The notes under the pieces were generated by a model. That model searched no databases. It was not told where the DNA came from and saw only the letters and a program-made list of their open reading frames with translations. Source: a virus. Taken from it: a DNA stretch of 20,009 bases. How positions within the stretch are numbered: position 1 is the stretch's first letter; each line of letters opens with the position of its first letter. A program made the translations under genes and the position numbers. This document shows, piece by piece, positions 1 to 20,009 of the stretch. The stretch is from positions 1 to 20,009 of IMG/VR virus record IMGVR_UViG_3300006327_000003. One strand, given 5' to 3'.

Positions 1-11
1 GTACTGAAGAT

Positions 12-1136
12 ATGCCAGCCGATCTACAAGGTACAGATATTGATGGTCGTGGCGCTCAGTTACGTCATAAAGGGTGGGATGACGACAGCGATTCTGAAGA
101 ATTAGTTATAGAAGGAAGTGGTTTTGATCCTGCTGGCCCAGACACAGGAGGAGATCTTGGAGTTTTTGAAGTAGGTGGCTGGTTTGATGATGATGCAGAA
201 CTTGAACCACTTACTGAAGGTGGGTTACCTAAGTTCTCTGAAGAAGAACTTGTATATGCTCGTAATCTTTTAGAAGCTGAATTAAGAATGGCTGGATTTG
301 ACACAGCGGCGATTGGGCGACTGTTAGAAGATTGGATTATTCCTCGTTTAACTGGTACCTACTTTGATGAAACAACAGGAGTAACTATGCTTCCTCCTGA
401 TAAAGCAGAAGACTTATTACCTGAATTGTTTGAGCAACAAGAATTTAAAAATAGATTTCCCGGATATCACAAACGTCTTGATGCTGGTTATAACGCTATA
501 GATGTTCAAGATTATTTAAAATATGAAGATCGGTTTAATGAATTGATGGTTTCTTATGGATTAGATTCTTTAATAGCTGAAGGGAATGTAACAGCTAGAG
601 AATATATGGGTGATTTAATAGGTGGTAATGTTTCTTTAGCTCAAGTTGATAGAAGAATTACTCAAGGTGTTGCCGCTGTTTTAGATGCACCAGAAGAAGT
701 ATTAGCACAATATGAAGAGTGGTATGGTAGTGAAGGAGAGAATGCTTTACTTGCACAGTTCTTAGATCCTAATGCTGATCTAATTGATTTAGCTAATAAA
801 GCAGGAGCGGCCGCGGCTGGTGGTTACGCGCAAAAGATATTAGGTTCTGGAATAGATGAAAGTATGGCAACAGATATAGCGGATCTTGATTATACAAATC
901 AACAGTTGTATCAGGCATATACAGCATTAGCACAACAGACTGCTTTGTTTGCAGAGAAAGCTGGTGAGCAAGATTTTGATATTACTGAAGAAGGTGTTGA
1001 GTATGCTTTGAATTTAGACTCAGATACTATTTCAGATTTAGAAGAACGCAGAAAATCGCGTGTAGCAGAATTTTCTGGCGGTGGAGGTGCATTAATGTCA
1101 GGTACAACTACAGGATTCGGGAGCGCAAATGCCTAA
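12..1136 (+). CDS. acidic virion-associated protein, possibly 5'-truncated by the window edge
   Basis: I do not recognise a named family. The 374 codons from the first ATG encode a very acidic, mostly helical, soluble protein with no membrane segment. The N-terminal ~75 residues are low-complexity Asp/Glu/Gly. A helical core follows, and the C-terminus is Gly/Ala/Ser rich with a GGGG run. The reading frame stays open to the left edge (codons from base 3) and no clear Shine-Dalgarno precedes base 12, so the true start may lie outside the window. It heads the block containing the holin and head genes, so a structural role such as an internal virion or portal-associated protein is the best inference. 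Its stop overlaps the next small gene by 8 nt (ATGCCTAA). Confidence 0.75.
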   Translation: MPADLQGTDIDGRGAQLRHKGWDDDSDSEELVIEGSGFDPAGPDTGGDLGVFEVGGWFDDDAELEPLTEGGLPKFSEEELVYARNLLEAELRMAGFDTAAIGRLLEDWIIPRLTGTYFDETTGVTMLPPDKAEDLLPELFEQQEFKNRFPGYHKRLDAGYNAIDVQDYLKYEDRFNELMVSYGLDSLIAEGNVTAREYMGDLIGGNVSLAQVDRRITQGVAAVLDAPEEVLAQYEEWYGSEGENALLAQFLDPNADLIDLANKAGAAAAGGYAQKILGSGIDESMATDIADLDYTNQQLYQAYTALAQQTALFAEKAGEQDFDITEEGVEYALNLDSDTISDLEERRKSRVAEFSGGGGALMSGTTTGFGSANA

Positions 1137-1212
1137 ATATGCAACTAGCTCTTCCAAAGGGAAGGCAAAAAAGGTACCATACAAAAAGGTAAAGAAAGGT
1201 AAACGTAAATAA
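1129..1212 (+). CDS. 27-residue lysine-rich mini-protein
   Basis: This is a very short ORF supported by its junctions. Its ATG lies inside ATGCCTAA, overlapping the upstream stop by 8 nt, and its TAA shares one base with the holin ATG (TAATG). A GGGAG lies about 5 nt upstream. Of 27 residues, 11 are Lys and 1 is Arg, concentrated in the second half (KKVPYKKVKKGKRK), after a Ser-rich N-terminus. No acidic residue is present. Composition suggests nucleic-acid or polyanion binding, for example DNA condensation in the head, or binding to the acidic protein encoded immediately before it. That role is inference; no family is recognised. Confidence 0.7.
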   Translation: MPKYATSSSKGKAKKVPYKKVKKGKRK

Positions 1213-1400
1213 TGTTTAACAAAGACGTACTAGAAAGGGTGGTTGCCACATTCGCGCAATCATTCCTTGCTGTGTTCACCATTGGTGACATGGGAAGCAT
1301 GAAAGCGGCTGGACTTGCAGGAGCTACTGCTGTTCTCAGCCTCGTTAAGAGTGTTGTTGCCAAGCAGTTTGGTGATGGATCGGCTTCAGCCGCCAGCTAA
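1212..1400 (+). CDS. r1t-type holin
   Basis: A 62-residue membrane protein with the layout of the phage r1t holin family (Phage_r1t_holin), common in phages of Gram-positive hosts and especially actinobacteriophages. The N-terminal pattern DVLERVVATFAQSFLAVFT (residues 5-23) is typical. It is followed by a short polar turn (GDMGSMK), a second hydrophobic helix (AAGLAGATAVLSLVKSVVA, about 32-50) and a short Gly/Asp/Ser/Ala tail. Holins accumulate in the cytoplasmic membrane and open it to release or activate the endolysin at a set time. The ATG overlaps the preceding stop by one base, and its own stop overlaps the next ATG by one base. The endolysin lies about 7 kb downstream rather than adjacent. 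Confidence 0.85.
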   Translation: MFNKDVLERVVATFAQSFLAVFTIGDMGSMKAAGLAGATAVLSLVKSVVAKQFGDGSASAAS

Positions 1401-1876
1401 TGACTGACGTTACCGACCTTAAACAAGTCAAAGTATCTAGGATAACCCTCGGACTAATCATGTCCGTAGCTATCACCAGTGGAGTCGTCGTATGGAATGC
1501 GGCTAGTATCGCTGGTAGGATTGATGATTTGGAAAAACAGGTGCAGGTAATTGAAGGAAACACTGGAACAGACAGTACAGTTTTGGCAAAACTTGATGAA
1601 ATATCTCAAGGTGTCATGGAAAATGCTGACGGTCTTGATGATTTGCGGAGCGCTAGGGTCGATGACCTTAGCCGTTTCACTCCTGCTCATATTACAAGCG
1701 CTATGGCGGCTGACTTAGAAGTAATTAAAAGTGATGTCGATGAAATGAAAGATGTCATTGCTTCTCTTGCATGGGTTCCTTCAGAATTTAGTACGATCTG
1801 GGATCGTATCTATCTAGCTGAAGAAGCTATTCAAAGTAAAGCATGGGGAGAGAAATTCTACGAAGAAAATGAATAA
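1400..1876 (+). CDS. single-span membrane protein with coiled-coil ectodomain
   Basis: 158 residues with a short charged N-terminus, one hydrophobic segment at about residues 15-37 (LGLIMSVAITSGVVVW core) and a long polar, heptad-like helical region (about 40-130) rich in Asp/Glu and Leu/Ile. The topology is probably N-in, with the coiled coil outside the cytoplasmic membrane. It sits directly after the holin and is start/stop coupled to it (TAATG), so an accessory lysis role such as a second holin component, antiholin or envelope-spanning factor is plausible. No catalytic motif or lipobox is visible. It could instead be a virion membrane-contact protein. Confidence 0.75.
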   Translation: MTDVTDLKQVKVSRITLGLIMSVAITSGVVVWNAASIAGRIDDLEKQVQVIEGNTGTDSTVLAKLDEISQGVMENADGLDDLRSARVDDLSRFTPAHITSAMAADLEVIKSDVDEMKDVIASLAWVPSEFSTIWDRIYLAEEAIQSKAWGEKFYEENE

Positions 1877-2051
1877 GACTGTTAAGCTCATTACTGCGAT
1901 AACAGCCTTATTGGTTGCTATAGGTACTTTAATCGGAACGATCACTGTTACTTTAGGTAAAGGTGATGATGGTTCTAAGTATTCTTACACCACAATAGTT
2001 TTAGATAGTCCGGAAAAATACGAGCAATTCATACAGAACCATCCGGGTTAA
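1869..2051 (+). CDS. small single-span membrane protein
   Basis: 60 residues: a hydrophobic helix at about residues 6-29 (LITAITALLVAIGTLIGTITVTL) followed by a short polar tail of about 30 residues ending in a Gln/Asn/His-rich stretch. The ATG overlaps the preceding gene by 8 nt, and the last base of its stop is the first base of the ferredoxin ATG. It is the third consecutive membrane protein of this cluster. It may work with the holin or the coiled-coil protein in lysis timing, or anchor the ferredoxin encoded next. Neither is shown by the sequence. Confidence 0.7.
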   Translation: MNKTVKLITAITALLVAIGTLIGTITVTLGKGDDGSKYSYTTIVLDSPEKYEQFIQNHPG

Positions 2052-2326
2052 TGAAAGTCTGGATAGATCAAGACTTATGTACAGGTGATGGGCTGTGTGT
2101 AGAGATATGTCCTAGCCTTTTTGACATGCATGACGATGGGTTAGCATACGTTAAAGAAGCAGATTGGAAATCTTTATATGGACCAGATAACCCTCGTACA
2201 GATAAAAGCACTCCTGTTTATCAAATGGCTGGAGGAACAGCAACAGTCCCAGACGAGTTGGCTGAAAGCGCTATTGAAGCGGCTGAAGATTGTCCGGGAG
2301 AATGCATATTCCTTGAAATAGACTGA
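2051..2326 (+). CDS. single-cluster ferredoxin with Asp in place of the second cysteine
   Basis: A 91-residue small iron-sulfur protein, an electron carrier for a redox partner enzyme. The N-terminal part follows the monocluster bacterial/archaeal ferredoxin pattern: IDQDLCTGDGLCVEICP gives C10-x2-D13-x2-C16-x3-C20-P, with the closing ligand in EDCPGEC (C81; C85 is an extra Cys). Asp at the second ligand position is known from Pyrococcus furiosus ferredoxin, where the cluster is [4Fe-4S] or converts to [3Fe-4S]; actinobacterial 3Fe-4S ferredoxins that serve P450s also lack that Cys. About 20 extra residues are inserted mid-protein (about 41-63). The gene is start/stop coupled to a membrane protein in a late phage operon, and no oxidoreductase partner is visible, so it probably uses host enzymes. 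Confidence 0.88.
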   Translation: MKVWIDQDLCTGDGLCVEICPSLFDMHDDGLAYVKEADWKSLYGPDNPRTDKSTPVYQMAGGTATVPDELAESAIEAAEDCPGECIFLEID

Positions 2327-2340
2327 TAATGTAGTATAGT
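2313..2340 (+). promoter_or_regulatory. sigma70-type promoter for the head gene block
   Basis: A -35 TTGAAA (2313-2318), a 16-nt spacer and a -10 TATAGT (2335-2340), each one mismatch from the bacterial consensus. It lies in the last codons of the ferredoxin gene and just past its stop. Expected transcription start is near 2347, giving a leader of about 160 nt before the putative scaffold gene. Confidence 0.6.
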
Positions 2341-2349
2341 AATCTACAT
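2329..2349 (+). promoter_or_regulatory. palindromic operator-like site over the -10 box
   Basis: ATGTAG (2329-2334) and CTACAT (2344-2349) are perfect inverted arms separated by 9 nt that contain the -10 hexamer TATAGT. A dimeric repressor or activator binding here would directly control the promoter. In RNA the arms would lie mostly upstream of the predicted start, so a DNA-level operator is more likely than an RNA hairpin. Confidence 0.4.
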
Positions 2350-2506
2350 GGATGTATCGCTCTAAGCTGTCCATATTCCGCTGGGATCACCCACGCTCCT
2401 AGTGTGTAAGAAGTGGAGGCTGATCCAGCTTGTGACGACTGGGGATGCTAACAATAGTCACGCACCGCATGGTTCCTCCGACTATGTGCGATAGCAAAGG
2501 AGAGGT
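2341..2506 (+). promoter_or_regulatory. structured 5' leader of the head operon
   Basis: This gene-free stretch between the ferredoxin and the putative scaffold gene is rich in complementary segments. GCTGGGATCA (2380-2389) pairs with TGATCCAGC (2421-2429) except for one bulged G, with an inner CCAC/GTGG pair (2391-2394 with 2413-2416). Further on, ATAGTC (2454-2459) pairs with GACTAT (2480-2485), while CGCAC (2461-2465) pairs with GTGCG (2486-2490) and GCTA (2447-2450) with TAGC (2492-2495). The two sets interlock, so they are either alternative folds or a pseudoknot. The second set ends right beside the Shine-Dalgarno AAGGAG (2497-2502). A translational switch or protein-binding leader is possible; no tRNA and no known riboswitch is recognised. 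Confidence 0.4.
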
Positions 2507-2989
2507 ATGGAAGACGAATTTGATGTAGAAGATTCTGGTGGAATCAAGGACTTGCGCGATGCGGCTGAAAGAGGTCGTAAAGCTACACAAGAACTTGATA
2601 ATATGAAACGCGAAATGGCGTTCATAAAAGCTGGAGTTGATACCGACAGCAAAGCAGGTCAACTGTTGTATAAGGCTTACGATGGGGCGCTGGAAACAGA
2701 ACTCATACAGGCTGAAGCTTCAGAACTTGGGATTCTTAAAGGGAATGCACCAGCACCTCCGCAAGAGTCACCTACACGAGATGTAGCAGGTGTGCAGGAG
2801 CGTCAAGCTCTCGCAGGTGACAGTGTTTCGCCAGAGGTAAGTACTCAAAGTCCTTACGATCAAGGTTTTGCTGAGTTTAAAACTGCGTATGATTCCGGTA
2901 AGCCGAAAGATGAATCGGCGGCACGGTTTGTACATACTGTTTTAGAAGCGGCTGGTCGTGGAGACGAACGAGTTATTGATAATTCGTAA
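2507..2989 (+). CDS. putative capsid scaffolding protein
   Basis: 160 residues, soluble, charged and predicted helical. The acidic N-terminus (MEDEFDVED) is followed by a Lys/Arg/Glu-rich helix (about 13-45), a Pro/Gln/Ser linker (about 83-115) and a second helical region with an Ala-rich C-terminus. Scaffold proteins of many phages have this composition and size and lie just upstream of the major capsid gene, as here. The assignment rests on position and composition, not on a motif. It is preceded by a strong Shine-Dalgarno (AAGGAG, 2497-2502) and its stop abuts the next ATG. Confidence 0.6.
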   Translation: MEDEFDVEDSGGIKDLRDAAERGRKATQELDNMKREMAFIKAGVDTDSKAGQLLYKAYDGALETELIQAEASELGILKGNAPAPPQESPTRDVAGVQERQALAGDSVSPEVSTQSPYDQGFAEFKTAYDSGKPKDESAARFVHTVLEAAGRGDERVIDNS

Positions 2990-3355
2990 ATGCCTACCTA
3001 CGTTTACGAGTGTAAGGGGTGTACTCCTCCAGTACTTTGGGAGTTAGTACAAAGCATGAGGGACGAACCTATTAAGGTTTGTCCGTATTGTGATAAAGAA
3101 TCTGCTAAACGGATTCTTCAATCACCGGCTTTAACTGCTGATGCAGTTCCAAGCACTAGAAACAAAGTTCCTCCAAGAAAGGCAAACCCTACTTGGGAGA
3201 AACAAGTTGCAGGTGAACATAGGAATGATGGCTCTTTTGTTCCTTATCGTAAAGATGATGGCAAAACTATACCAATCAAAGAATTTACTGATAATCGCTC
3301 AAAGTATGAAGGACTGTTGCGAGAAAGAAAAAACAGACAATCCACTACTAATTAA
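2990..3355 (+). CDS. FmdB-like zinc-ribbon protein
   Basis: 121 residues. The N-terminus MPTYVYEC matches the FmdB-type regulatory zinc-ribbon family, with ligands C8-x2-C11 and C31-x2-C34 (VCPYC) around a QSM-x2-EP-I-K core that is also typical. The C-terminal ~75 residues are basic and polar (Lys/Arg/Asn), with no recognised fold. The ATG follows the scaffold-like gene's TAA with no gap, and the capsid gene starts 14 nt after its stop. Such zinc ribbons occur in many phage genomes with unclear roles. Here the location suggests a head-assembly or late-expression factor, which is inference. Confidence 0.8.
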   Translation: MPTYVYECKGCTPPVLWELVQSMRDEPIKVCPYCDKESAKRILQSPALTADAVPSTRNKVPPRKANPTWEKQVAGEHRNDGSFVPYRKDDGKTIPIKEFTDNRSKYEGLLRERKNRQSTTN

Positions 3356-3369
3356 AGGAGCGTAGAAAT

Positions 3370-4539
3370 ATGGCAGTAGTGCCTAATGGAGGTATGGTAA
3401 CCTCCTACGAGCTTGCGGTTGGCGTAAAAATCAACATGGACGAACTCATTTACATGATTTCTCCTACTGATTCTCCGTTTATTAACGGTATCGGAACAGA
3501 TGGAAGGCAACTTCTTTCAAGTTCTGGCACCGACCAGCAAGAATTTAAATGGATGGACGAGGAGCTATTGCTTCCTCGTGCAACGGTAACTGATACAGGA
3601 GCCGCAGGTGCAGGAGCAACTGATGTTACTGTATCCGCCGCGGATTCTTACAGATTCCAAGTTGATGACCTTATCAGCATAGCTGAGACAGGTGTTGCTA
3701 TGAATGCGTCAATAAAGCGCGTTACACATGTCAACAACGACGCTGGTGTTCTGACTCTTGCAAACTGGGCAAACGATTCAGCTTGGCCAGCTACCACAGC
3801 GGGACATGCAGACGTAGTTATTTGCGTAGGCACAGCCCTTCCAGAAGGTTCCGATCCGGGACAAGTACGTACAGCAGATCGCACGATCCGCACGAACTGT
3901 ACTCAGATCTTCGGACCTACCCCTATCCACATGTCACGTACTGAACAGCAGGTATCACGTTACGGTGTGTCTGACGAGTTCGCCAAGCAGGTTTATGGCC
4001 GCACGGTTGAAAACGTCATCACTCGTGAGCAGGCTTACCTGTATGGTCAGTACCAGAACAATGACGACAGCGATAAGCGTCGTTCAACTGGTGGACTTAA
4101 CTACTGGATTACTTCTAATACCGATACAACAACCACGTTGACTATCGCCGCATTGGAAGCACTCCAGCAGAAATGCTATAACGCAGGTGGTATGCCTGAT
4201 CTTTTGATCGCTAACCCTGCTTCGTTTGCTACCCTCAACGCAGTATCAGATAGTGGCCGTGTTCGCACAGTCATTGACGATCCTCGTCGTGGTCGCGTAC
4301 CAACAATGTCCGTCTTCACCGAGTTCGGTGAAACCCAGTGTGTAAGAAACCGCTGGTGTGACAAAGAGGGTGCGTTCTTGATTACTAAGGAAGGCGTTTC
4401 CCGTAGGGTTATGCAACCGCTAGTAGTTGAGGCTCTCGCCAAAACTGGTGACAGCGACAAGGTGCAAATCGTATGTGAAGAAGGTCTTCAAGTGAAGGGC
4501 GAATCACATATGGGCAAATTTACTACGCTAACAGCTTAG
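3370..4539 (+). CDS. major capsid protein, DUF5309/SU10-like (HK97 fold)
   Basis: 389 residues. The N-terminal pattern with a short helix, then SPTDSPFINGIG (31-42) and a QEFKWMDEELLLPRA segment (57-71), resembles the DUF5309/SU10-type major capsid family, a branch of HK97-fold capsid proteins. A Thr/Ala/Val-rich inserted strand region follows (about 72-140), then an Arg/Glu-rich helix region (THFGPTPIHMSRT-like stretch near 175-215) and a C-terminal domain. It has the best ribosome binding site in the window (AAAGGAG, ~10 nt upstream) and is visibly less AT-rich than its neighbours, as expected of a highly expressed structural gene. A stable hairpin follows the stop. It forms the icosahedral shell. 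Confidence 0.85.
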   Translation: MAVVPNGGMVTSYELAVGVKINMDELIYMISPTDSPFINGIGTDGRQLLSSSGTDQQEFKWMDEELLLPRATVTDTGAAGAGATDVTVSAADSYRFQVDDLISIAETGVAMNASIKRVTHVNNDAGVLTLANWANDSAWPATTAGHADVVICVGTALPEGSDPGQVRTADRTIRTNCTQIFGPTPIHMSRTEQQVSRYGVSDEFAKQVYGRTVENVITREQAYLYGQYQNNDDSDKRRSTGGLNYWITSNTDTTTTLTIAALEALQQKCYNAGGMPDLLIANPASFATLNAVSDSGRVRTVIDDPRRGRVPTMSVFTEFGETQCVRNRWCDKEGAFLITKEGVSRRVMQPLVVEALAKTGDSDKVQIVCEEGLQVKGESHMGKFTTLTA

Positions 4540-4559
4540 TAATTTAATACCCCCCCACT

Positions 4560-4600
4560 GTTGTTAGGGGGCGCTAGGGTTTCCCTCGCCCCCTGACAAC
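4560..4600 (+). terminator. strong hairpin after the capsid gene, no U-tract
   Basis: A 14-bp stem, GTTGTTAGGGGGCG (4560-4573) with CGCCCCCTGACAAC (4587-4600), one T-G wobble only, continues through a CT bulge into AGGG/CCCT with a TTT loop. The sequence after it (GACTATCATC) has no T-run, so this is not a classical intrinsic terminator. A C7 tract (4550-4556) just upstream could pair with the G5 tract instead, giving an alternative weaker fold. Partial attenuation, or 3'-end protection of capsid mRNA, would explain higher capsid output. Confidence 0.5.
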
Positions 4601-4615
4601 GACTATCATCTAACT

Positions 4616-5530
4616 ATGCCTACTATCGCAGACTCCATCCAAGACACGAAAAGACTTTTAAATAGTAATACGCGTGCCGAATTAGATCTTATTAAAGTCG
4701 GCATTGGTCATTCAGATACACAATTTGTATTGACACATGAAGCAGATGGTGTTCGTGCTGGTTCTTATATATCAGTAAGTCACGGTAATACTGCACCAGA
4801 AACCATGTATGTTACTAAGCGTAATGGTGCGAATGTGTATGTTATGCGTGGCATGGATGGCAGTACCGCTCAAACTTGGGGAGCGGATTCTATGATTGAA
4901 GTAGAACCACGCTTTACTGGGCATCAAATTTATCAAGCTGTTAAGCAAGCTATCTATGCTTTACCTGAGAATTTATTTGCTATTAGTACTGTTAGTGTTG
5001 ATTTCGCTACTTCAGAGCAGGCTAAAACAGTCACATTTGGCGACGGTTTTTATAACATTGTTTCTGCTACTCGTACAGCTAGAGATTCAGAAGATCGTTT
5101 ACTTAAATTTAACTGTAAAGTTCAAGAGTATAACGGTGCTTATAAGTTGATTAGACAAGAAGGAATAGAGAAAGCAGTCACAGTACAAGTTACATATAGT
5201 CATCCGTTTGTAACAGGGACTCTAGATCTGGATACTGATCTCGTGTCCATTGTGAAAATGAAGTCTGAGATGACAGATATTCCACCATTAGGCGCAGGAG
5301 CAATTCTAATGCTTGCTGAGGAGTCAACTCGTCTTGATCTTCATGCCGCTGGTGATTCGAGGGGTGACGGAGCCGTGAATCCCGGAGATCGTTCTCGTTA
5401 TTCATTGATATTACAGGCGCAATATGATCGTCGGGTAAGTCAGGAGGCACGTCGTCTGATGGCGAAGTATGGTTTGCGGACTGATGCTTCAGTCGGCGCA
5501 ACATTTCCCACGACACTTCGTGGTCATTAG
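4616..5530 (+). CDS. putative head-tail connector / tail-tube adaptor protein
   Basis: 304 residues without a motif I can name firmly. Residues about 1-95 are beta-rich with Gly turns (SYISVSHGN, MRGMDGST), followed by a helical stretch (HQIYQAVKQAIYALPENLF, about 101-119) and another beta region. The C-terminal helical, Arg-rich segment (YDRRVSQEARRLMAKYGLR) is typical of ring-forming adaptor proteins. It lies between the capsid and the putative tail nozzle, where podoviruses carry adaptor or tail-tubular A genes. No Shine-Dalgarno is evident before the ATG, which comes 15 nt after the capsid hairpin. Confidence 0.6.
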   Translation: MPTIADSIQDTKRLLNSNTRAELDLIKVGIGHSDTQFVLTHEADGVRAGSYISVSHGNTAPETMYVTKRNGANVYVMRGMDGSTAQTWGADSMIEVEPRFTGHQIYQAVKQAIYALPENLFAISTVSVDFATSEQAKTVTFGDGFYNIVSATRTARDSEDRLLKFNCKVQEYNGAYKLIRQEGIEKAVTVQVTYSHPFVTGTLDLDTDLVSIVKMKSEMTDIPPLGAGAILMLAEESTRLDLHAAGDSRGDGAVNPGDRSRYSLILQAQYDRRVSQEARRLMAKYGLRTDASVGATFPTTLRGH

Positions 5531-5535
5531 TAAAC

Positions 5536-7467
5536 ATGCCGCTTCACAACAATACTCATCGAGAGTCCCTTCCTATACGATTAGGTGATCGTAAGTATAA
5601 TGTTGATGTTAGCAGGTTAGCTCGTCAAACTATTGACCCTATCCGTCAAGGCTTTGATACTGTAGGTCAGCCGGGAGAGCAATCTTTAAATCAGGCTGGT
5701 GTGTGGAAGCGTAGCCGTAATGATTGGGAGTTGGGTGCTGGTCAGAGGGAAGCTGATTCTCCTGAGTCTGGTTTGCGTAGGTTTCATACGAGTCTTGGTA
5801 TAGATCCTTGGACTAAGAATGAGATTAAGTTACATAAAAATACTGAATCATCTGAAGCTTCTACTGAAACGAATCTTCTTTTAACAACCGCTACAGTACC
5901 CGGAACACCGGATGTTAATTATATTTATATGGCGAATGGGGCTAACCTTGAGTATTCCACTAATAACGGGACCAGTTGGACTCCTATCTCTAATCCTTGT
6001 GGTGGAGATATTTTTGCTTTAGCTAGTGATGGCTTAAATGTTTACGCCGCTGGTAATGCCGGTGGCTCATCAGAAGTTCAAAGAATACAAGGCACGGCTG
6101 TGACTGCCGCTTCTGGTACAGGTCACGTTTGGACTTTGACTGGTATGGCCGAAACCGATGGTGTGTGGTTCGCGAATGGATATCTAATAGCATCTGATGG
6201 TTCTCGTCTTACTTGGTTACCTAGTACAGCAGACGAGTCTAGTGTGTACGATATAGCTTCATCTACTTTCTCGCAGGTAACTACATGGTCATCTGTCATA
6301 GGTACACCAGTAGGTATATACGCGGCAGGTAATCAAGGTAATCAAGGTCGTATCTATTACATAGGTATTAACGACTCGACTGTTGCTTTAGATGTACCTG
6401 TTCTTGCGGCTCCCTTACCAGAGGGAGAAACTATCAATGTTCTATCAGAATACGGTGGTGTGATACTCATCGGAACTAACAAAGGTTTCCGTTTAGCTCA
6501 AACAGGGCAACGAGGCACCTTATCGTTCGGGCCTTTAGTAACTATTGACAATGGTGTTTCTGTTGTTGAACCTCAAGGAGAATTTGTTTGGTTCGGATGG
6601 AGGAACTATGAAGGCAATTCAGGGCTAGGTCGTATAAGTTTAAAAGAATTTACTGAACCTCTTGTCCCTGCTTATGCTACTGATCTTATGAGAGATAGTA
6701 CTGATGCAGATGTGCAAGGTGTTATAACTACTTTTGATGATCGTAGATTGTTTACTATTTCAGGTGTAGGTGCATTCCGAGAACATGATAGTAACTATGT
6801 GGCTAGTGGAACTATAACTGAAGGTAGATTTAGATGGGGTATAACAGAACTTAAAGTACCAGTATCAGGAGACATACGGCATAACGCTTTAACAACAGGA
6901 CAATCAGTTACTTTAACTGTTACCAGTGATGACGGACAAACAGATACTATTACATCTAATACTGTGGGTAAAAGTACACCAGTAGATGTTGACGGAAACC
7001 CCAATGTTCAACCCTTTGATAATGTGGATGGTGAATATATTATTCCTTCATTGACTATCAATCGTGGTGACACAACTCTTACTGAAACTCCTACCGTGTT
7101 CAGATGGACAGTCCGCGCTATACCTATGCCTTTCGTGGCAGAAGTAATCACATTACCTATTATTTTAACTACACAAACAGAGCATGAAGATCGTCATATC
7201 TGGCAAGATGTGTATGAAGAATACAATTATATTAAAAGCTTATTAGAGAAACGTGCGCTCGCACTCTTTATTATGGGTGCTGAAGTAAAGAACGTGTATG
7301 TAGCTGGAGTGGGTTACGACCAAGGTGCGATTGGTAAATGGTCTGATAGCCAGCAAAGAAAATATGTAGAGGGTTACGGTAGAGATAGGTGGGTTGAGGG
7401 TGTGCTAACTGTTCAGCTTATTACTGTGCAAACTGGTGTGACTTTAACTCCAAGTGATTCGGCATGA
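5536..7467 (+). CDS. putative tail nozzle / tail hub protein with beta-propeller-like repeats
   Basis: 643 residues, almost entirely beta-strand and Gly/Thr/Ser rich. The N-terminal segment (about 51-95: SLNQAGVWKRSRNDWELGAGQ then RRFHTSLGIDPWTK) resembles a stretch seen in tail proteins of actinobacterial phages, in which a W-x-GAGQ motif precedes RF-x-S-x-GIDPWT. The middle (about 125-400) reads as successive strands with repeated short motifs of the type IYYIG, GLNVYAAG and VYDIAS, which suggests a beta-propeller as in tubular tail proteins. The C-terminus holds a helix (VYEEYNYIKSLLEKRALALF) and a final strand domain. There is no tape-measure gene nearby, so a short tail is likely. The exact role is inferred from position. 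Confidence 0.65.
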   Translation: MPLHNNTHRESLPIRLGDRKYNVDVSRLARQTIDPIRQGFDTVGQPGEQSLNQAGVWKRSRNDWELGAGQREADSPESGLRRFHTSLGIDPWTKNEIKLHKNTESSEASTETNLLLTTATVPGTPDVNYIYMANGANLEYSTNNGTSWTPISNPCGGDIFALASDGLNVYAAGNAGGSSEVQRIQGTAVTAASGTGHVWTLTGMAETDGVWFANGYLIASDGSRLTWLPSTADESSVYDIASSTFSQVTTWSSVIGTPVGIYAAGNQGNQGRIYYIGINDSTVALDVPVLAAPLPEGETINVLSEYGGVILIGTNKGFRLAQTGQRGTLSFGPLVTIDNGVSVVEPQGEFVWFGWRNYEGNSGLGRISLKEFTEPLVPAYATDLMRDSTDADVQGVITTFDDRRLFTISGVGAFREHDSNYVASGTITEGRFRWGITELKVPVSGDIRHNALTTGQSVTLTVTSDDGQTDTITSNTVGKSTPVDVDGNPNVQPFDNVDGEYIIPSLTINRGDTTLTETPTVFRWTVRAIPMPFVAEVITLPIILTTQTEHEDRHIWQDVYEEYNYIKSLLEKRALALFIMGAEVKNVYVAGVGYDQGAIGKWSDSQQRKYVEGYGRDRWVEGVLTVQLITVQTGVTLTPSDSA

Positions 7468-8438
7468 GGTTTTATCCTTCGTATACTTTCGAGACTCCTA
7501 CTCCACCTCAGCAACGTATAGGTAATGGTGGTTATACACAATGGACATCAAGTAATCCTAATTCTGCTTCAGTAAGAATAGGTTCATCTAATACTTTAAC
7601 TGCTAATTATTCTTATATTGGTTTTAATACAGGGCATAGTGAAGAAGATTATTTAGGATACATAGTTGCTACGAGTGGTACTCATGCTACTTACGGTGAT
7701 TACGGTGGCATGGTAATGCGTCCACCTGTAATGACTAATGATGCTTACCGTCCTTATATTTCTTTGGTCGAGTATGGTGCGGCAACAGCAGGACGTTCTT
7801 ATGTGTCAATAGGCATTGACGACAGTAGTGTAGATAATGCATCTCAAAGTGTAACTAACTGGTATCGTCTTTCTGGTGGTGGATACAGTCAAGTTAATTA
7901 CGGTGATGCTTGGTATTGGTATGACAACCCAACTACAGGTAGTTCATGGACTACTTTAATGTCACTTAATGCTTCAGGTAATCTAGCTATTAATGGTTCA
8001 TTATCTAAAGGATCCGGGTCATTCGACATACCTCACCCAGTAGTAGAAGACAAAAGGTTACGCCATTCTTTCATAGAGGGACCGTATGCTGATCTAATAT
8101 ACAGAGGCACTGTGACACTCGGAGCAGAACCAGTAACTATTTGTATGGATGAAGAGTACGGTATGACTGAAGGTACATGGAAAGCATTGAACACTAACCC
8201 TTGGTCTATGGTTTCAGCATCAGGTAAGTTGGTTGAATGGTCGTTAGATGAATGCAAGCTGACTATCATTGGGGATGAAGGAACAGTTTGTCAGTGGATG
8301 GTTATAGGTGAACGTAAAGATCAGCATATGATTGATACGGATAGTACTGACAATGATGGTAGACTTATACTAGAGTATATTCCGACGGCTGAACCAGAGG
8401 ACATACATGAGCAATCCCTTACTCCCGACTACAGATAA
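7464..8438 (+). CDS. tail fibre protein
   Basis: 324 residues. The ATG overlaps the preceding TGA by 4 nt (ATGA). The first ~165 residues are Gly/Ser/Tyr/Thr-rich strands, compatible with a receptor-facing or trimerising domain. The junction segment LNASGNLAINGSLSKGSG (about 168-185), followed by SFDIPHP and LRHSFIEGPYADLIYRG (about 199-215), is a module seen in tail fibres of many phages, including cyanophages, where it ends the fibre shaft. A compact C-terminal domain follows, with three Cys and an acidic tail. It should mediate host attachment. The endolysin start overlaps its 3' end by 32 nt. Confidence 0.78.
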   Translation: MRFYPSYTFETPTPPQQRIGNGGYTQWTSSNPNSASVRIGSSNTLTANYSYIGFNTGHSEEDYLGYIVATSGTHATYGDYGGMVMRPPVMTNDAYRPYISLVEYGAATAGRSYVSIGIDDSSVDNASQSVTNWYRLSGGGYSQVNYGDAWYWYDNPTTGSSWTTLMSLNASGNLAINGSLSKGSGSFDIPHPVVEDKRLRHSFIEGPYADLIYRGTVTLGAEPVTICMDEEYGMTEGTWKALNTNPWSMVSASGKLVEWSLDECKLTIIGDEGTVCQWMVIGERKDQHMIDTDSTDNDGRLILEYIPTAEPEDIHEQSLTPDYR

Positions 8439-9150
8439 GCGTATAGATCTAAGTATACTTCATCCTAGATTTATAGATAGATTAGAAGATTTCTTCTCTG
8501 ACGGGCGCATAGGTAAAAAAGTAGCAATTTGCTCAGGTGCAAGGTCATACGCCTCTCAGAAGGCCCTCTACGACCGTTACAAACGAGGTAAAGGTAACCT
8601 TGCGGCTAACCCTGATTGGCTTAGACCAGATGGTTTCTTTAGAGGGTCATTCCATCAAGAACAACCAGACGGATTCTCGTATGCAGTTGACCTACGTATA
8701 GTTAAACGAGGTATAACTACCGATGAAGTTACACAAGTAGCACATAGATACGGTATACGTCCTACTGTTAAGGGAGAATGGTGGCATTTCCAACCACGTA
8801 ACGGTAATAGCTGGTTTAATAAAGGCGGTTCTGTATTTCTTGGAACAGAACCAGAACCACCAGAACCTAAAGTTAATTGGACTGGTATCCAAGCAATCAT
8901 AGATGACATGGGCAGACAGATAGCTGTATCACCTATAAGACGTGGATCCAAAGGAGATATCGTCAAGGTTGTGCAATCAAAACTAAACTCGTTAGACTTT
9001 AATTGCGGAACAGCGGACGGAGTATACGGACGTAAGACTTTACGAGCAGTCCTAATGTTACAAAGATCGCTACTATTGAAAGAGAGTGGGGCTATGGATC
9101 ATAAGACATGGACAGCTATGTGGAAACCGGAGATACCTATTGGCCTCTGA
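8407..9150 (+). CDS. endolysin: VanY-like peptidase plus peptidoglycan-binding domain
   Basis: 247 residues. The N-terminal domain (about 1-130) matches the D-alanyl-D-alanine carboxypeptidase family (peptidase M15, VanY-like): SGARSYASQKALYDRY (43-58), SFHQE with H83, SYAVDL with D95, and EWWHFQ with E124 and H127 supply the zinc ligands and catalytic Glu. A Pro/Glu linker (about 147-155) leads to a C-terminal PG_binding_1-type repeat (about 175-240) with RRGSKGDIVKVVQSKL, DGVYGRKT and KTWTAMW. It should cut peptidoglycan cross-links once the holin opens the membrane. There is no signal peptide. The start is the only ATG before the catalytic core, with a GAGG about 6 nt upstream. Confidence 0.9.
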   Translation: MSNPLLPTTDKRIDLSILHPRFIDRLEDFFSDGRIGKKVAICSGARSYASQKALYDRYKRGKGNLAANPDWLRPDGFFRGSFHQEQPDGFSYAVDLRIVKRGITTDEVTQVAHRYGIRPTVKGEWWHFQPRNGNSWFNKGGSVFLGTEPEPPEPKVNWTGIQAIIDDMGRQIAVSPIRRGSKGDIVKVVQSKLNSLDFNCGTADGVYGRKTLRAVLMLQRSLLLKESGAMDHKTWTAMWKPEIPIGL

Positions 9151-9364
9151 ACAATCATTAGAAGAATACGCTTCTTCAAGATCTGGTCAAGTTGGTGCAT
9201 GGGTTGATAGTTTACCTGATGAAATATTTAATCAAGCTTGGGATGCGTTAGCCACAATAGGTGGTATTGGAAAAACAACTGTTACTAAATGGTTGCAATC
9301 AATAGGATACACTGATGCTACTCAAGGCAAAGTCAGTGCAATACTAACTCGTGAGCGTCGATAA
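9140..9364 (+). CDS. small HTH-like protein, TTG start
   Basis: 74 residues from TTG at 9140, which has GGAG 7 nt upstream (9129-9132) and overlaps the endolysin stop by 11 nt. The first ATG in frame (9086) would overlap the endolysin by 65 nt and lacks such a site, so TTG is preferred. The C-terminal half reads IGGIGKTTVTKWLQSIGYTDATQGKVSAIL, where a short turn between two helices resembles helix-turn-helix DNA-binding units. It overlaps the metallophosphoesterase gene by 14 nt, so the two are translationally linked. A DNA-binding partner or regulator of that enzyme is a reasonable guess. Confidence 0.6.
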   Translation: MASEQSLEEYASSRSGQVGAWVDSLPDEIFNQAWDALATIGGIGKTTVTKWLQSIGYTDATQGKVSAILTRERR

Positions 9365-10412
9365 CTTAGAAGACTTCACAGCAGGTGAAGACATAGTTAA
9401 AGCTTTACGTTCTGCTTCTAGATATAAGACGGAAGCTGAAACGGCGAAAGCCCAAGTTAAGACGCTTACAAACGAGATTGAAATTCTTGATAAACAAGTT
9501 AATATTCTCGCCGATCTTAAAAACAGTTCTGTCAAACCACCCTCGTGGCTTCGTCCCAAAAAGCAAGGCAAGGAAACTGGCATAGTTTGTGCTGTTCTTT
9601 CTGACACTCACTTTGACGAGGTTGTCAACCCGGACGAGATCCAAGGGCGCAACGCATACAACAGAGACATCGGGGTCAAGAGACTCCGAAAGTTCTTTGA
9701 GAAGATTGTCCTTCTTACCAATGATTATCTCGCCGGTCTGGACTATTCGGGATGTGTTCTCTTTCTCGGAGGTGACTTGTTCAGTGGGGATATCCACACC
9801 GAACTCACAGAGACTAACGAAGACACCATGCTTGGTTCTGTTCTTTTCTGGGCAGACCAACTCTCCTCTGGAATTGGAATGCTCGCCGATGAATTCGGTA
9901 GTGTTCATGTCCCATGTGTTGTCGGTAATCACGGCAGACGCACGAGGAAGCCCCGATCCAAACTCAGAGCTAGAGATAACTTCGACTGGTTCCTCGCTAA
10001 GACGCTCGAATCTCACTGGGCTGGCGATGATCGAGTTACCTTTAATATTCCTGACAGTCCTGACTGTTTTGTTACTATCCATGATTCTACTTATCTCCTA
10101 ACTCACGGCGATCAAGCTCGTGGTGGTGGTGGGATAGGTGGCATCTGGCCCCCAATAATGAGGCTAGTGGCACGTAAAAGAAATAATTCAGACTTTACCT
10201 GTATGGTACTGGGTCATTTCCATCAATTAATATTGGCTCCTTCATCTGGTTTTATAATGAATGGTTCCCTCAAAGGTTACGATGAGTATGCTTCAGTTGA
10301 GAACTTTCCTTTTGAAGTTCCGCAACAAGCTCTATGGATCAATGTACCTGAAAAAGGAATACTTTGGCAAACACCTATTCTTGTGGAGGATCGGAAGGCA
10401 GAAGGCTGGTAG
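9351..10412 (+). CDS. calcineurin-like metallophosphoesterase with coiled-coil N-terminus
   Basis: 353 residues from a GTG start at 9351. An N-terminal charged helix (about 15-60) is likely a coiled coil. The catalytic domain has all classical two-metal phosphoesterase motifs: LSDTH (D85, H87), GGDLFSGDIH (D142), VGNHGR (N193, H194), LLTHGD (H252) and LGHFH (H289, H291). It resembles the nuclease domain of the Mre11/SbcD superfamily and phage DNA-repair phosphoesterases more than small nucleotide phosphatases, but substrate cannot be read from motifs. It is the last gene of the rightward block and converges with the leftward operon. The central third appears less AT-rich than its ends. Confidence 0.88.
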   Translation: MSVDNLEDFTAGEDIVKALRSASRYKTEAETAKAQVKTLTNEIEILDKQVNILADLKNSSVKPPSWLRPKKQGKETGIVCAVLSDTHFDEVVNPDEIQGRNAYNRDIGVKRLRKFFEKIVLLTNDYLAGLDYSGCVLFLGGDLFSGDIHTELTETNEDTMLGSVLFWADQLSSGIGMLADEFGSVHVPCVVGNHGRRTRKPRSKLRARDNFDWFLAKTLESHWAGDDRVTFNIPDSPDCFVTIHDSTYLLTHGDQARGGGGIGGIWPPIMRLVARKRNNSDFTCMVLGHFHQLILAPSSGFIMNGSLKGYDEYASVENFPFEVPQQALWINVPEKGILWQTPILVEDRKAEGW

Positions 10413-19214: not shown

Positions 19215-19574
19215 TCAGAAGGGTTCTACGGCGGAATCTTCCACGGTCGCAGGTGCCTCTAGAGGAATCGAGTACTTCTCAAACGGAGTCTGAATCCCCG
19301 CTTCTGAACAGCGTCGTGTCCAGTACTCTACGTTGGTCGCCCACGCGTCTTCGATGTCACGGTGGAGTCCCACGCCCTTGGTCGCTTGGCGCTTCGTGGT
19401 CACAGCAAACGGTTTCCAATCGTACGTTTCCTTCCACTCAGCGTTCCCGATCCAAGCTTCTTTAGATCCCATGGTCAAATAGGATCCCTTAAATTTCCCT
19501 CCAGTGATCGGATGGAATTGTCTAGTCTTAGCTGTTCCAAAGCCAGTGTCTTGCGGTGTATCAAAGTCAGACAT
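19215..19574 (-). CDS. 119-residue hypothetical protein, first gene of the leftward cluster
   Basis: The start at ATG 19574 is chosen because AAAGGAG lies 8 nt upstream; an in-frame ATG at 19631 adds a Cys/His-rich stretch inside the leader hairpin and has no such site. The protein is soluble, rich in Trp, Thr and Gly (GTAKTRQFHPITGGKFKGSY, EAWIGNAEWKETYDW), with a final Val/Pro/Glu tail. Codons are less AT-rich than in the neighbours, like the capsid gene, which hints at high expression early in infection. No family recognised. Confidence 0.72.
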   Translation of the reverse strand: MSDFDTPQDTGFGTAKTRQFHPITGGKFKGSYLTMGSKEAWIGNAEWKETYDWKPFAVTTKRQATKGVGLHRDIEDAWATNVEYWTRRCSEAGIQTPFEKYSIPLEAPATVEDSAVEPF

Positions 19575-19609
19575 ATTGTCTACTCCTTTTATTAAGTGCA
19601 GGCATTGTT

Positions 19610-19656
19610 GCCTACGGTTCAGAAACACCATAAAAGGCAGGTTCTGTCAAGTAGGC
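19610..19656. repeat. leader hairpin upstream of the first leftward gene
   Basis: GCCTAC (19610-19615) pairs with GTAGGC (19651-19656) and CAGAA (19620-19624) with TTCTG (19642-19646), separated by a symmetrical 4x4 internal loop. It competes with part of the larger nested pairing at 19627-19944, so it may be an alternative fold in the leftward leader. Confidence 0.35.
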
Positions 19657-19944
19657 ACGGAATTAACAGACTCTAGAAATGTTCTCTTCCATTTCGTAGA
19701 GCATGTAATGAGTACGACTTGACAGGTTCTGGGCTTCGCTGGTGAATGAATAGCATCGCTTCTCAAATCAGGGAAGACGCAACCCAAACACTAGCGAGCT
19801 TGTCTCGCAGGGTTTTTCGGAGATATCTAGTGAATACACCTAGGTCGTTAGTCGCTGGCTTGCCAGTAGACTTACGACTTCACTAGATTCACCGCATGGT
19901 CTGTCGACCTGATTTGACTGCTATTCACTCACCACTTTTATGGT
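19627..19944. ncRNA. candidate large structured RNA or structured DNA element
   Basis: Five nested helices can form without conflict. Closing stem: ACCATAAAAG (19627-19636) with CTTTTATGGT (19935-19944). Branch one: CTGTCAAGT (19644-19652) with ACTTGACAG (19717-19725), containing a hairpin CTCTA-g-AAATG (19671-19681) with CATTT-cg-TAGAG (19690-19701). Branch two: 19740-19754 with 19920-19934 (one A-C mismatch on this strand, a G-U on the other), then TCAAATCAGG (19763-19772) with CCTGATTTGA (19908-19917). Inside this, one arm is AACCC/GGGTT plus GCGAG/CTCGC (19781-19814). The other is 19825-19834 with 19879-19888, then 19844-19853 with 19869-19878, capped by CTGG-CTTG-CCAG. No ORF is present. 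The CUUG cap favours the + strand, the G-U the - strand. Confidence 0.45.
19644..19725. promoter_or_regulatory. divergent TTGACA boxes in a perfect 9-bp inverted repeat
   Basis: ACTTGACAG occurs once on each strand: minus at 19652-19644 (facing the leftward genes) and plus at 19717-19725. Each contains a perfect -35 hexamer. The plus copy has GTGAAT 17 nt on (19742-19747); the minus copy has no good -10 at normal spacing (TGTTTC at 17). Divergent promoters, an operator pair or an RNA stem are all compatible. Confidence 0.35.
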
Positions 19945-19973
19945 ACTTTGTCGCCTAAGTTAAACTTTGCGCC
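19945..19973. repeat. short direct repeat next to the structured region
   Basis: ACTTTGTCGCC (19945-19955) recurs 19 nt later as ACTTTGCGCC (19964-19973), differing by one inserted T. Between them lies the small palindrome AAGTTAAACTT (19957-19967). The rest to the right edge has TTTCGAAA and a C6 run and nothing codes. Iteron-like sites are one option. Confidence 0.3.
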
Positions 19974-20009
19974 AGCACCATAGCGTTTCGAAAACCCCCC
20001 ACTATACAG

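Follow-up and report, generated by a model that had tools for sequence, protein, structure and literature searches.

Organization of the Locus

The window analyzed here is a viral contig of 20,009 nt, in which genes of the plus strand occupy positions 1–10412 and those of the minus strand, constituting the early operon, run from 19574 downward. The first gene of this operon (19218–19574, minus strand) encodes a product of 119 aa for which no match was found in Pfam or PHROG. The first-pass annotation had described the 318 nt between 19627 and 19944 as a stretch without genes, and this holds true: the open reading frame extending to 19631 most likely starts at 19574, since the ribosome-binding site AGGAG is located directly before its ATG. 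Within the group of plus-strand genes, positions 2051–2326 encode a phage ferredoxin that contains an insertion and has a 4Fe-4S domain of the single-cluster type (Fer4_15, E = 4.8e-18).

What had been taken for a gene-free right end is free of genes but is not an end, being one half—the hypervariable one—of a larger intergenic region of ~900 nt reaching beyond the window. Its full extent is represented in L002, another contig of this species, which differs by 1 mismatch over the last 1009 nt and extends past the window end; there the region spans L002:4100–5000, and the reported 318-nt fold forms its right part. The portion inside the window (19575–20009) continues as L002:4100–4565, bearing a conserved domain and the late promoter described below. 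On the far side lies a divergent operon whose first gene encodes a Gp80 fibre protein (Pfam Gp80, E = 2e-42), so that the element sits between the early and the late operons. This layout is retained in relatives of the marine phage, gathered as contigs starting from the exonuclease and from Gp80; joined contig pairs (L101c, L103c, and G008c) were used in places, the junction of G008c seeming to miss ~160 nt. In related genomes, the late operon proceeds after Gp80 through tail genes, terminase, and portal to a giant gene of 11–13 kb. Two such genes, present as single units of 3690 and 4268 codons (L207:4919–15991, minus strand; L209:6836–19642, plus strand), encode polyvalent proteins in which DUF7831 and cpYpsA/SLOG domains occur, accompanied in one of them by an AlkB-like domain. 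The large terminase subunit of two other relatives (L208:4593–6284, minus strand; L177:4698–6401, plus strand) matches with its N-terminus the small subunit family phrog_4044 as well, which suggests a fused terminase.

Two further properties of the intergenic region are visible across the group. Its strand flips abruptly in mid-region from A/C-rich to G/T-rich composition in several relatives (near position 430 of the region extracted from L079 and near 506 of that from L192). Many contigs, the window with its end at 20009 included, terminate inside the region at scattered distances of 76–1029 nt from Gp80, and one junction lacks ~160 nt that a relative possesses; these ends are probably assembly breaks caused by structure and variability. 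An element inside which contigs so often end is easily missed in metagenomes.

Secondary Structure of the Hypervariable Part

The nested fold proposed for 19627–19944 exceeds chance expectation, as had been claimed. RNA folding yielded –127.1 kcal/mol for the minus strand (z = –10.48) and –124.9 kcal/mol for the plus strand (z = –7.24), with none of 100 shuffled sequences as good in either case, and with DNA parameters the minus strand still reached z = –9.10. All helices named in the annotation were recovered, and several of them have changed on both sides in another species of the group, L096. The outer 10-bp stem (19627–19636/19935–19944) folds on both strands and is the same in L096. It encloses the long helix (19740–19755/19919–19934; 16 positions with one mismatch, 94% complementary), a 10-bp helix (19763–19772/19908–19917) in which a C-G pair has become U-A in L096, and the three-part hairpin (19825–19888), capped by CTTG on the plus strand and CAAG on the minus strand, where U-A is replaced by G-C in that species. 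A 9-bp helix of the second branch (19644–19652/19717–19725) also carries double changes in L096. Outside this fold, a central hairpin has its right arm, TGGGGGGTTT on the minus strand, at 19992–20001 and its left arm past the window end (L002:4500–4509); in L096 it is longer and compensated (TGAAATCCCCCCA/TGGGGGGATTTCA).

Some of these hairpins behave as modules. The one located at 19844–19878 (minus strand) inside the three-part hairpin has the core AGTCTACTSGCRAGCSAGCGACTA, in which R and S denote ambiguous bases; among 2.9 million viral contigs, a scan that also accepted R at the sixth base detected it in 5, each time in the intergenic slot, with outer stems differing between contigs (for example, GTCGT/ACGAC and GAATC/GATTC). 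Another module, whose loop is GCGA, was likewise found in 5 of the 2.9 million, all belonging to this phage group, and in the slot wherever inspected. The hairpin GAAATG-GAAGAGAA-CATTTC (19676–19695, minus strand) exposes an 8-nt loop, and hairpins with a similar loop were found again in relatives.

Conservation of Pairing in Related Phages

In a sequence search among the relatives, the element aligns over its full length only within the same species and with L096. A consensus of L002 and L096 comprises 105 pairs, none of them broken, among which four have changed on both sides and one on a single side, a count that flatters the element because a consensus selects for pairs that were kept. Elsewhere the slot carries largely unrelated sequence which nevertheless folds strongly: of 21 relatives, 17 fall below z = –3 for one strand or both, and 14 do so for both.

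A fairer test relied on seven pairs of relatives whose intergenic sequences can be aligned: one member was folded alone, the other was scored on that structure, and the expected value was obtained by shuffling the same substitutions among like bases. Double changes keeping Watson–Crick pairing numbered 134 against 36 expected for plus-oriented folds, a 3.7-fold excess, and 122 against 36 for the other strand; the L002/L096 pair alone contributed 18 against 4.8. Each pair was scored both ways, which inflates the counts but not the ratios. RNase P RNA from 25 genome pairs, treated by the same procedure as a control, gave 429 against 116, an equal 3.7-fold excess. The relatives retain base pairing, not sequence, about as strictly as RNase P RNA. 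Of the two outcomes that the annotation had named as refuting the fold, an energy no better than that of shuffled sequence and a lack of compensatory changes in homologous phages, neither was observed; such changes are present in L096 and in the seven pairs.

A Conserved Domain Adjoining the Late Promoter

The part of the intergenic region adjoining Gp80 is of another kind. A domain of ~200–250 nt (L002:4100–4350) is kept in more than 20 related contigs, with DNA identity of about 69–94% wherever blastn aligns them, and a degenerate pattern derived from it matches 40 viral contigs plus a single contig from a binned Actinomycetota MAG. The distance to the Gp80 start is 119–135 nt in 32 of the 40, and in seven others the terminase gene directly follows the domain, L192 being the fortieth contig, which neither count includes; since either gene may follow, the domain heads the late operon whichever is first. 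A leftward sigma70-like promoter, TGGACG-N17-TATCAT, which was also listed by a blind scan, overlaps the edge of the domain and reads away from it; 22 of 36 distinct sequences match this promoter exactly.

Five helices were traced through 26 sequences of the domain. Of all cells, 92.8% pair, and in 15 of 25 pairs both sides have changed. The covariation score amounts to 0.395, compared with 0.130 (sd 0.012) for shuffles and 0.03–0.06 when partners are slid; the argument is placed on the slid-partner control and on the variety of the helices, because kinship alone can beat shuffles. Two of the helices cross each other, forming a covarying pseudoknot, and in one of the two all 6 pairs have changed on both sides. 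The first crossing helix, GCCC/GGGC, has the variants ACTC/GAGT, CCTC/GAGG, and CCTG/CAGG; the second, CATACT/AGTATG, occurs as CACATC/GATGTG, CAGCCT/AGGCTG, and GCACTA/TAGTGC. The third helix has imperfections in the L103 and L101 copies, and in sequences of the L107 type the last helix is misaligned. The domain displays no G-U preference, and its single-sequence z-scores are weak, perhaps due to the pseudoknots being left out of the folding model.

Relation to Known Structured RNAs

The annotation saw here a large base-paired structure of no recognized family, and both parts of this description stand: the pairing is under selection, and Rfam returned no significant match to the element, either at the gathering score or at E up to 10, while blastn against 50,697 phage records gave no match at all. 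Among individual candidates, the covariance models of GOLLD (even at E up to 10) and ROOL were not matched, and the element has no neighboring tRNA genes. Membership in the freshwater-2 family (RF02980) was rejected as well, its alignment over the early gene start and ribosome site reaching 17.7 bits (E = 3–6) against a gathering score of 49.9, with several pairs broken.

Resemblance to these classes is nonetheless apparent in outline. ROOL is large, ornate, and phage-borne, like the element. GOLLD is a phage-borne RNA of about 800 nt with one conserved and one variable region and pseudoknots (PMC12286853). The element resembles it in size, phage context, the conserved/variable division, and pseudoknots but is not filed under GOLLD because the GOLLD model does not match. 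GOLLD frequently, though not universally, has tRNA neighbors, and it is expressed during lysis.

A further comparable system is that of phage HK022, whose put RNA, a structured leader of about 65 nt with two hairpins, modifies transcription. If the element is transcribed, the two would have in common a structured leader at divergent phage operons, a likeness compared by description only.

RNA or DNA, and the Choice of Strand

The strand, left open by the annotation, is not assigned here either, as three kinds of test disagree. GNRA tetraloops cap four distinct stems on the early-operon strand, against 0.63 expected, and none on the other strand. The z-scores of relatives lean to the strand opposite the early-operon strand (15 of 21, p = 0.08), giving the contrary answer to the loops. 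As to wobble pairing, the seven pairs of relatives show a depletion of single changes on both strands that is about as deep for those giving G-U as for those giving A-C; on the early-operon strand, 85 G-U changes stand against 105 A-C changes, which mildly disfavors RNA on that strand, although the test is weak because RNase P itself shows only a modest G-U preference (321 against 247). No terminator and no consistent promoter for a separate RNA were found at the intergenic region.

The observations converge on base pairing under selection, a conserved position, modules specific to the phage group, and no match to a known family, and we regard the element as real, unnamed, and probably an RNA. 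The crossing covarying helices and the recurrent loops speak for RNA, the equally good folding of the two strands and the switch in composition for a role of the DNA, such as an origin. We put at about 0.45 the probability that the intergenic region encodes a new family of large (~0.8–0.9 kb) structured phage RNA. A structure acting at the DNA level, for which the annotation had proposed a cruciform-type origin or packaging site (the two taken together here), is a serious possibility, since both strands fold about equally and G-U is not clearly tolerated.

As a replication origin, the region would expose hairpins on its strands once the duplex is opened between the early and late operons, to be recognized by initiation proteins or primase. 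Folding of both strands, with DNA parameters too, the unclear tolerance of G-U, and the abrupt switch from A/C-rich to G/T-rich sequence would all suit such a function, and the cumulative GC skew of the window has its minimum at the window end that bears the element, though transcription alone can cause skew at a divergent gene junction, where it is confounded with gene direction. Since no direct repeats of at least 14 nt (iterons or repeated initiator sites) occur in L002:3700–5100 and a covarying pseudoknot is unusual for DNA, we consider an origin possible but doubtful. A packaging site, where a terminase with its small-subunit-like N-terminal domain would recognize the structured region to begin packaging, could draw on the seven contigs with the conserved domain immediately upstream of the terminase gene and on the many contigs ending within the region; this is quite unlikely, given that several kb separate the region from the terminase gene in most relatives and that scattered ends, with ~160 nt missing at one junction, suit assembly breaks better than fixed termini. 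Hairpin promoters of the N4 type, read as DNA by a virion RNA polymerase, were rejected and are hardly credible: the location at the early operon, the triloop hairpins of some relatives, and the giant proteins of 3690–4268 aa in relatives recall that system, but the giants of the two relatives are polyvalent proteins (AlkB, YpsA/SLOG, and DUF7831) in which no polymerase was detected, neither by phmmer of the 3690-aa protein against solved structures nor as polymerase motif B in either, and in the phage of the window the element is devoid of triloop hairpins of this kind.

Two other explanations part from the preferred one at different points. The hypervariable fold might serve the early operon only, as a 5′ leader RNA (minus strand of the window, rightward in L002) acting on early transcription or translation, with the conserved domain as a separate control region of the late promoter. 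The best z-score of this phage and the GNRA loops fall on that strand, the gap from the fold to the ribosome site is only about 50 nt, and the faint resemblance to the cis-regulatory freshwater-2 RNA covers the gene start; with the z-scores of relatives leaning to the other strand and the G-U counts mildly against the minus strand, this arrangement appears unlikely. Pairing might also persist with no selected function if template-switching errors of replication copied one arm of an inverted repeat onto the other. Such errors would yield double changes that are Watson–Crick only, on both strands, and in a fast-changing region, but they do not explain why hairpin cores are shared under differing outer stems, why the position is kept in 17 of 21 relatives, or why the conserved domain covaries, so that we hold this to be very unlikely.

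With the reading as a large structured RNA, the putative transcript would consist of two domains—a conserved pseudoknotted one beside the late promoter and a hypervariable one built of hairpin modules, the latter being shown by the window—and may act as a leader or a separate noncoding RNA of the long operons starting here. By analogy with put RNA, one might guess that the folded molecule alters how the very long late operon is transcribed. Tentatively, the element may represent a new family of large noncoding RNAs of marine phages, distributed over at least 40 viral contigs and combining a traveling pseudoknotted domain with hypervariable, pairing-selected hairpin modules. Only a few large structured RNAs are known from phages, and the element adds many natural variants in which stems are rewritten and pairing is kept.

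Small RNA Genes Encountered in the Contig Set

Scans for tRNA and tmRNA genes found none in the window and L002. A two-part pattern matched 24 other viral contigs with tmRNA genes of ~80 nt that consist of the tRNA-like part only, with no mRNA-like region: L177:1777–1858 (minus strand), L189:7186–7267 (plus strand), and 22 further contigs (L242–L263). The copy in L177, for which ARAGORN makes no call, and those in all 12 contigs rescanned match the Rfam tmRNA model (RF00023) over its whole length, with scores exceeding the gathering threshold. One short tmRNA is preceded, at a distance of about 100 nt, by a Pistol ribozyme (L250:6093–6154, minus strand; 51.9 bits against a gathering score of 34.5), and a near-threshold Pistol match of 33.0 bits occurs in a relative of the window's phage (L079:3442–3512, plus strand).
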